From assembly GCA_947625235.1 (NCBI GenBank), contig CANQNP010000010.1, positions 1 to 39,342 on the forward strand: a DNA stretch of 39,342 nt, read 5' to 3'. A model generated the notes under the pieces. The model was not told the DNA's origin, searched no databases, and worked only from the letters and a program-made list of their open reading frames with translations. Position numbers and translations under genes: made by a program. Of this stretch, positions 23,022 through 24,467 are shown one piece after another. Each line of letters opens with the position of its first letter. The stretch's first letter is position 1. The DNA comes from an uncultured Atopobiaceae bacterium (GTDB lineage: Bacteria > Actinomycetota > Coriobacteriia > Coriobacteriales > Atopobiaceae).

Positions 23022-24467
23022 ATGAGTACCAAGCCAAGGGTTCCCACTGGATTTCCAGAGGGCTTTCTCTGGGGCGGTGCCGTGGCGGCCAACCAGTTGG
23101 AGGGCGCCTGGGACGAGGATGGAAAGGGTCCGTGTCTCGCCGACATCAACGAGTACACGAACGACATCCCCGTGGACCAGAAGCACAACGGGGAAGAGAC
23201 GACGGAGAGGGTGGAGACGCTCCTCGCCTCCTCTGGACGGATCTTCCCCAAGCGCTATGGCATCGACTTCTACCACACCTATGAGCAGGATCTGGCGCTC
23301 TTGGGCGAGCTCGGCCTCAAGACCTTCCGCACATCCATCAACTGGTCGCGCATCTTCCCGCATGGGGACGATCCCGAGCCCAACGAGAAGGGCCTCGAGT
23401 TCTACGACCGTCTCATCGACGCTATCGTCGCCAATGGCATGGAGCCTATGATCACATGCCATCACTACGAGATGCCCATCGCGCTCGCCCTTAAGTACCG
23501 TGGCTGGTACGACCGGGAGGTCATGGATCTATTCGTGCGCTATTGCAAGACGATCATCGATCGCTATCACGACAAGGTGAAGCTCTGGATTCCCATCAAC
23601 CAGATCAACCTCATCTCCGCGGAGTCCTTCAATGCGCTCGGCATCTGCGCCGATCGCGTGGATAACCTACTCGAGGCGAAGTACCAGGGGCTCCATCACC
23701 AGCTCGTGGGATGCGCGCGAGTGTGCCAGTACGTCCACGAGACCTATCCCGATCTACAGGTGGGCATGATGCTCTGCGGTGGGCCCGCGTACCCCGCGAG
23801 CTCAAGGCCGGGAGACGTACTCGCCGCCCTGCTCCGAAACCAGACCCAGTACTTCTTCGGCGATGTCATGCTGAGAGGTGAGTACCCCATCTCCATGCTC
23901 CGCTACTTCGAGGATAACCGTCTCGACATCAGATTCGGTGAGCATGACCTCGAGGACCTTACGCACACGGCGGATTTCATGTCCTTCTCGTACTACTACA
24001 CGAGCACGGTCACCGAGGAGAGCTACGAGGAGGGCAACAAGTGCCGCCCGAATCCGAATCTCGAGGCGAATCCCTGGGGCTGGAGCATCGACCCCAAGGG
24101 CCTGCGCGTGACGCTCAACGAGTACTACGATCGCTGGCGCAAACCGATCTACATCACAGAGAACGGTATCGGCTGCTATGACAAGCTCGAGGACGGCCAC
24201 GTGCACGATCCCTATCGCGTGGAGTACCTGCGCGCCCACATCGAGCAGATGCGCGAGGCAATCCGCGACGGCGTCGACCTACGTGGCTACTACGAATGGG
24301 GCCCCATCGACATCGTGAGTTGCTCGTCATCGGAGATGAGCAAGCGCTACGGTTTCATCTACGTGGACATCGACGATTATGGAAAGGGTTCGGGGAAGCG
24401 CTACAAGAAGGACAGCTTCGACTGGTATCGACGGGTCATTGATAGCAATGGAGCAGACTTAGGCTAG
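23022..24467 (+). CDS. GH1 6-phospho-beta-glucosidase-like enzyme with Gln at the acid/base site
   Basis: This 481-residue GH1 barrel has the family opening [29 protein letters not shown] for sugar binding, the nucleophile E380 in YITENGIG, and a 6-phospho-type ending [21 protein letters not shown]. The acid/base position, normally Glu in a TFNEIN-type motif, is Gln194 (PINQINLI, codon CAG). Plant myrosinases, which act on thioglucosides, have the same Glu-to-Gln change. The start is the ATG after GGAAGGGAAG. The gene ends the PTS operon and would split the imported phospho-sugar; whether it cleaves ordinary O-glycosides efficiently is open. Confidence 0.9.

Follow-up and report, generated by a model that had tools for sequence, protein, structure and literature searches.

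The window, a stretch of 39,342 nucleotides from an uncultured Atopobiaceae bacterium, carries a GH1 gene beside its own IIB-IIC-IIA genes and a divergent PRD-type regulator (Table 1), which bears out the dedicated PTS that an earlier sequence-only reading of this DNA had claimed. GH1 residues are numbered from the ATG at 23022, with a second in-frame ATG at 23004 as a possible start. For EIIA, the ATG at 22619 is preferred, the mechanical ORF beginning at 22532. All neighbourhood genes described below are mechanical ORFs.

Table 1. The PTS-GH1 operon of the window and the active-site codons of its GH1 gene
Feature	Position	Strand	Remarks
Divergent PRD-type regulator (HTH_11, Mga HTH, PRD and EIIA-2 domains)	18784..20733	-	Recurs beside Gln-type GH1
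PTS lactose/cellobiose-type EIIB	20956..21276	+	PF02302
PTS lactose/cellobiose-family EIIC	21286..22590	+	PF02378; TIGR00359/TIGR00410 below cut-off
PTS lactose/cellobiose-type EIIA	22619..22996	+	PF02255; TIGR00823 below cut-off
GH1 protein, Gln-type (acid/base-less) 6-phospho-beta-glycosidase clade, 481 aa	23022..24467	+	PF00232 E=1.6e-119; AlphaFold2 model
Gln194 codon CAG, general acid/base position	23601..23603	+	
Glu201 codon, seven residues past Gln194	23622..23624	+	Same offset as myrosinase Arg194
Glu380 codon GAG, catalytic nucleophile (ITENG)	24159..24161	+	
Phosphate-binding motif S433...K441-R-Y443, intact	24318..24350	+	

Beyond the operon, a pair of MNT nucleotidyltransferase and HepT-like genes (PF18765/PF01909 and PF01934; 24960-25621 with 24628-25002, both on the + strand) has a short RelB-like ORF directly before it, and the pair spanning 24628-25621 is likely a HEPN-MNT toxin-antitoxin module. 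Elsewhere the window encodes a protein with a C-terminal colicin-DNase/WHH nuclease-like domain (1772-2419, -; PF12639, PF14414), which adjoins a 125-aa ORF (1398-1775, -); a HerA/TrwB-like ATPase of about 1149 aa (2373-5822, -) beside an 845-aa ORF with no Pfam match (5856-8393, -); and a protein kinase domain fused to DUF5067 (11256-12779, -).

The active site of the GH1 protein

Positions 23598-23610, AACCAGATCAACC, encode N193-Q194-I195-N196 of the GH1 ORF, where the closest solved 6-phospho-beta-glucosidases (e.g. 6wgd) have NEIN or NEVN. Codon and solved homologues together confirm that Gln occupies the acid/base position, as the sequence-only reading had proposed, and its statements that the nucleophile Glu380 and the phospho-sugar motif are intact hold as well, Glu380 being invariant. 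Pfam places the protein in GH1, and the 6-phospho-beta-glucosidase subfamilies of NCBIfam come nearest to it but with their cut-offs missed (best model 476.5 bits against 639). An AlphaFold2 model built from 76 sequences (pLDDT 96.8), which supersedes an earlier one of middling confidence from 18 sequences (pLDDT 72.8), finds its best PDB folds among 6-phospho-beta-glucosidases, E. coli BglA and its relatives, at a TM of about 0.9. The protein has the fold, the phosphate Ser/Lys/Tyr motif and the nucleophile Glu (ENG) by which the GH1 6-phospho-beta-glucosidase group is recognized, and departs from that group in the acid/base Glu (NE), which is Gln194 here. Paralogues in the same genome, both the full-length GH1 proteins (L001, L002/L011 and L003) and a fragment (L005), carry Glu at the site without exception.

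Distribution and history of the Gln site

Conservation of Gln in the nearest GH1 clade had been named beforehand as a check, and every close homologue has Gln, none Glu. The GH1 relatives in 16 other genomes of the window's family, about 53-79% identical, are all Gln-type, and an alignment of 18 family proteins that includes the window's shows no variation at NQIN or Glu380. When 84,980 species genomes were scanned with patterns that left out the acid/base site, the best 80 matches all carried Gln and kept the nucleophile Glu. These loci span Bacillota, Spirochaetes, Synergistaceae, Chloroflexi (Pelolinea), Enterobacterales and Actinomycetota, with Lachnospiraceae, Enterococcus, Niallia, Paenibacillus, Erysipelotrichaceae and Treponema among the taxa represented. 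Non-redundant clade members have Gln in 39 of 39 cases, against Glu in 50 of 50 other GH1 sequences, a pattern beyond chance. Being clade-wide, Gln194 is neither a sequencing error nor a lone mutation.

A homologue from Listeria monocytogenes (L111), 52% identical and located beside vga(G), is also Gln-type; we take it to be lmo0917, which would presumably make lmo0917 a member of the clade. In open-access papers lmo0917 appears in expression and pathway tables only. The open-access literature yielded no paper on the Gln-type clade and no characterised or solved member, so activity of the Gln-type enzymes is assumed here from conservation. Database records call members of the family simply GH1 protein, and profile libraries liken the family to 6-phospho-beta-glucosidases.

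Within the window's genus, no other member passed the 1e-150 threshold and the nearest matches are Glu-type, while among 396 Actinomycetota genomes drawn the strict threshold was passed by one besides the window genome. With just this one further carrier, and none elsewhere in the genus, the Gln-type operon looks sporadic and was probably horizontally acquired. A search for viral copies of Gln-type GH1 found none. E. coli has no near relative of the window protein, the best among the matches listed being bglA, at 67% over half the query length.

Among 174 distinct GH1 sequences, all with Glu as nucleophile, 117 are Gln-type and 57 Glu-type at the site, the Glu types being the more narrowly sampled. 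Trees calculated without the site columns each place one Glu/Gln change, and in the careful tree the split has a support of 96/83 and is present in 97% of bootstrap trees. Repeated independent losses of the acid/base Glu are not favoured, since both trees need one change, and the whole Gln family is apparently derived from one old change. The direction was likely Glu to Gln, as the sequences of the Glu type surround the Gln group on the unrooted trees.

When 39 Gln and 50 Glu sequences are compared, a complete switch is found at position 194 alone. Q25, R103, W108, H148, N193, Y325, W352, E380, W426, K441 and Y443 are invariant in both groups, and S433, found in 39 of 39 sequences of the Gln clade, is nearly so over both. 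They include the residues that bind the sugar and the phosphate in this family. Their invariance in both groups, together with that of the nucleophile, argues that the chemistry at C1 is retained, and the pattern of conservation speaks for an enzyme that would still form a glycosyl-enzyme and not for decay. A pseudo-enzyme, idle in catalysis and serving the PTS as a sensor or regulator, would accord with the lost carboxylate and with the tandem Gln-type paralogues at L056, L064, L077, L090 and L094, but with nucleophile, sugar- and phosphate-binding residues invariant over so deep a clade we consider it improbable.

The Gln-type enzymes are co-inherited with their PTS. Their usual arrangement is PRD regulator-IIB-IIC-IIA-GH1, and Glu-type genes mostly have a beta-glucoside IIABC PTS as neighbour. 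Counted by nearest PTS, 63 Gln genes go with a Lac-type system and 5 with IIABC, compared to 5 and 20, respectively, for Glu genes (Fisher p=2e-11, with shared ancestry ignored). Moreover, identities of IIC and GH1 are correlated (r 0.68, 0/2000 permutations, again ignoring shared ancestry). Directly downstream of Gln-type GH1 lies an EamA-type transporter gene at 8 loci, a YczE-like membrane protein gene at about 7 and a HAD phosphatase gene at a few; all three are missing from the window operon. The EamA-type and YczE-like membrane genes, at about 15 loci and hence in a minority, hint at a possible export of aglycone. The YczE-like gene overlaps or closely follows the GH1 gene in unrelated genera (11385-12044 at L039, 11430-12086 at L051, and five more loci).

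A search of the window genome for HPr and the enzyme I N-domain found neither, in spite of its PTS EII genes, and its one PEP-utilizers_C match is presumably the end of a pyruvate phosphate dikinase. Because HPr and enzyme I lie next to each other in three members of the genus and the window genome is 91%-complete, an assembly gap is likelier than a true absence.

Catalysis with Gln at position 194

The Gln family must act by a route other than the textbook one. The reading that we put forward, with about even confidence, is that the clade consists of retaining phospho-glycosidases for glycosides whose aglycones (aryl, enol, acyl or thio) leave without protonation, supplied through a dedicated PTS. 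In the window, the operon IIB-IIC-IIA would import and phosphorylate a beta-glucoside or a closely related glycoside, and the phosphorylated product would be hydrolysed by the GH1 enzyme, whose clade lost its acid/base Glu once. Glu380 would attack C1, a step that needs a good leaving group when the general acid is missing, and an aglycone of the aryl, enol, acyl or thio type, being such a group, would depart with little or no protonation. Water would then open the glycosyl-enzyme without base catalysis from residue 194. With the general base missing, the intermediate should be hydrolysed slowly if neither another group nor an anion lends help; perhaps Glu201, in its own subclade only, or a small anion assists. 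Ascorbate gives such help in myrosinase (PMC8836197). We infer the hydrolysis itself, the type of aglycone and the source of base catalysis, and the proposal in the sequence-only reading that other activated glycosides may be substrates appears plausible.

Glu201 is found in 103 of the 117 Gln-type sequences and in none of the 57 Glu-type ones. The Gln group is made up of a large Glu201 set (motif HESFNHLG) and smaller sets without it, with V, G, D or a gap in the remaining 14 sequences, which lie on several branches; the member at L118 (1501-2955) is one that lacks Glu201. Glu201 and non-Glu201 types form tandem pairs at L056, L077, L090 and L094, and the two Gln copies at L064 both have Glu201. 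This residue could be a displaced catalyst, if it or another acidic group did the acid/base job and ordinary O-glycoside phosphates were hydrolysed. Its confinement to Gln-type sequences points that way, as does its position, +7, which is that of Arg194 in myrosinase, a residue in contact with the aglycone sulfate. However, since 14 Gln sequences lack it, Glu201 is not a general replacement and is ruled out as a universal acid/base substitute, and we regard a displaced catalyst as possible but rather unlikely.

With residue 194 neutral, the glycosyl-enzyme might also be opened not by water but by an anionic or activated acceptor, such as phosphate, a carboxylate or another sugar. Where the negative charge has been lost, as in rescued GH mutants and GH3 phosphorylases, anionic acceptors are at an advantage. 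In addition, the nucleophile and sugar site are intact, and a few loci have HAD phosphatase neighbours. Yet such neighbours are rare, and a conserved partner such as phosphoglucomutase was not found. We know of no phosphorylase or transglycosidase reaction described for GH1 6-phospho enzymes. Thus, there is only a slim chance that the Gln clade comprises PTS-coupled GH1 phospho-glycoside phosphorylases or transglycosidases using an anion or other acceptor.

To our knowledge, retaining glycosidases that lack the acid/base residue have mainly been described among plant myrosinases and as laboratory mutants; here the loss arose once and has persisted in a bacterial family of wide distribution. 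With the acid/base Glu lost, substrates assigned from names, such as cellobiose and ordinary O-glucosides, are likely wrong in many gut and soil genomes. As a natural library of >100 sequences, with subclades that have or lack Glu201, the family makes acid/base-less retaining catalysis directly testable.

Comparison with known systems

Plant myrosinases have as their signature Gln and a sulfate-binding basic residue (PMC3947992; PMC6536577). In S. alba myrosinase (1e4m), WLTINQLYSVPTR begins at 182 and contains Q187 and R194. Like the classical plant myrosinases (TGG, 1e4m; QE[K/R] type), the window protein pairs Gln at the acid/base position with a Glu nucleophile; unlike them, it has Glu201 instead of Arg at +7, by an ungapped count of seven residues, and carries the phosphate motif of the 6-phospho group. 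The acidic side chain at +7 would be expected to repel the sulfate of a glucosinolate. Because the Gln clade is nested among bacterial 6-phospho enzymes, its change is very likely independent of that in plant myrosinases.

A glucosinolate route, which the sequence-only reading had raised, would make the Gln-type enzyme a phospho-myrosinase. Plant TGG myrosinases share the Glu-to-Gln change (PMC3947992), and Companilactobacillus farciminis has a route to sinigrin through a PTS and a 6-phospho-beta-glucosidase (PMC8660893). However, Glu201 stands where myrosinase has its sulfate-binding Arg, and E. coli BglA, which has been linked along with AscB to glucosinolate metabolism (PMC8660893), carries Glu at the acid/base site, so such metabolism can do without Gln. 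The C. farciminis pathway (CfPttS/CfPbgS) resembles the window operon in coupling PTS import to a GH1 phospho-glucosidase, but its PTS is an IIABC fusion and its enzyme is 48-50% identical to BglA/AscB (PMC8660893), which is a Glu-type setting. We therefore do not uphold the glucosinolate route and consider it very improbable; the comparison with myrosinase is sound as a catalytic analogy and weak as a substrate analogy.

The GH1 6-phospho-beta-glucosidases of E. coli (BglA, 2xhy), B. licheniformis (6wgd) and S. pneumoniae (BglA-2, 4ipl) are 41-47% identical to the window protein, with a fold TM of about 0.9, and share its nucleophile, sugar site, phosphate-binding residues and PTS context. 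In contrast to them, the Gln clade has Gln for Glu and is accompanied by a Lac-type PTS and a PRD/EIIA regulator, whereas the Glu types sampled usually have IIABC.
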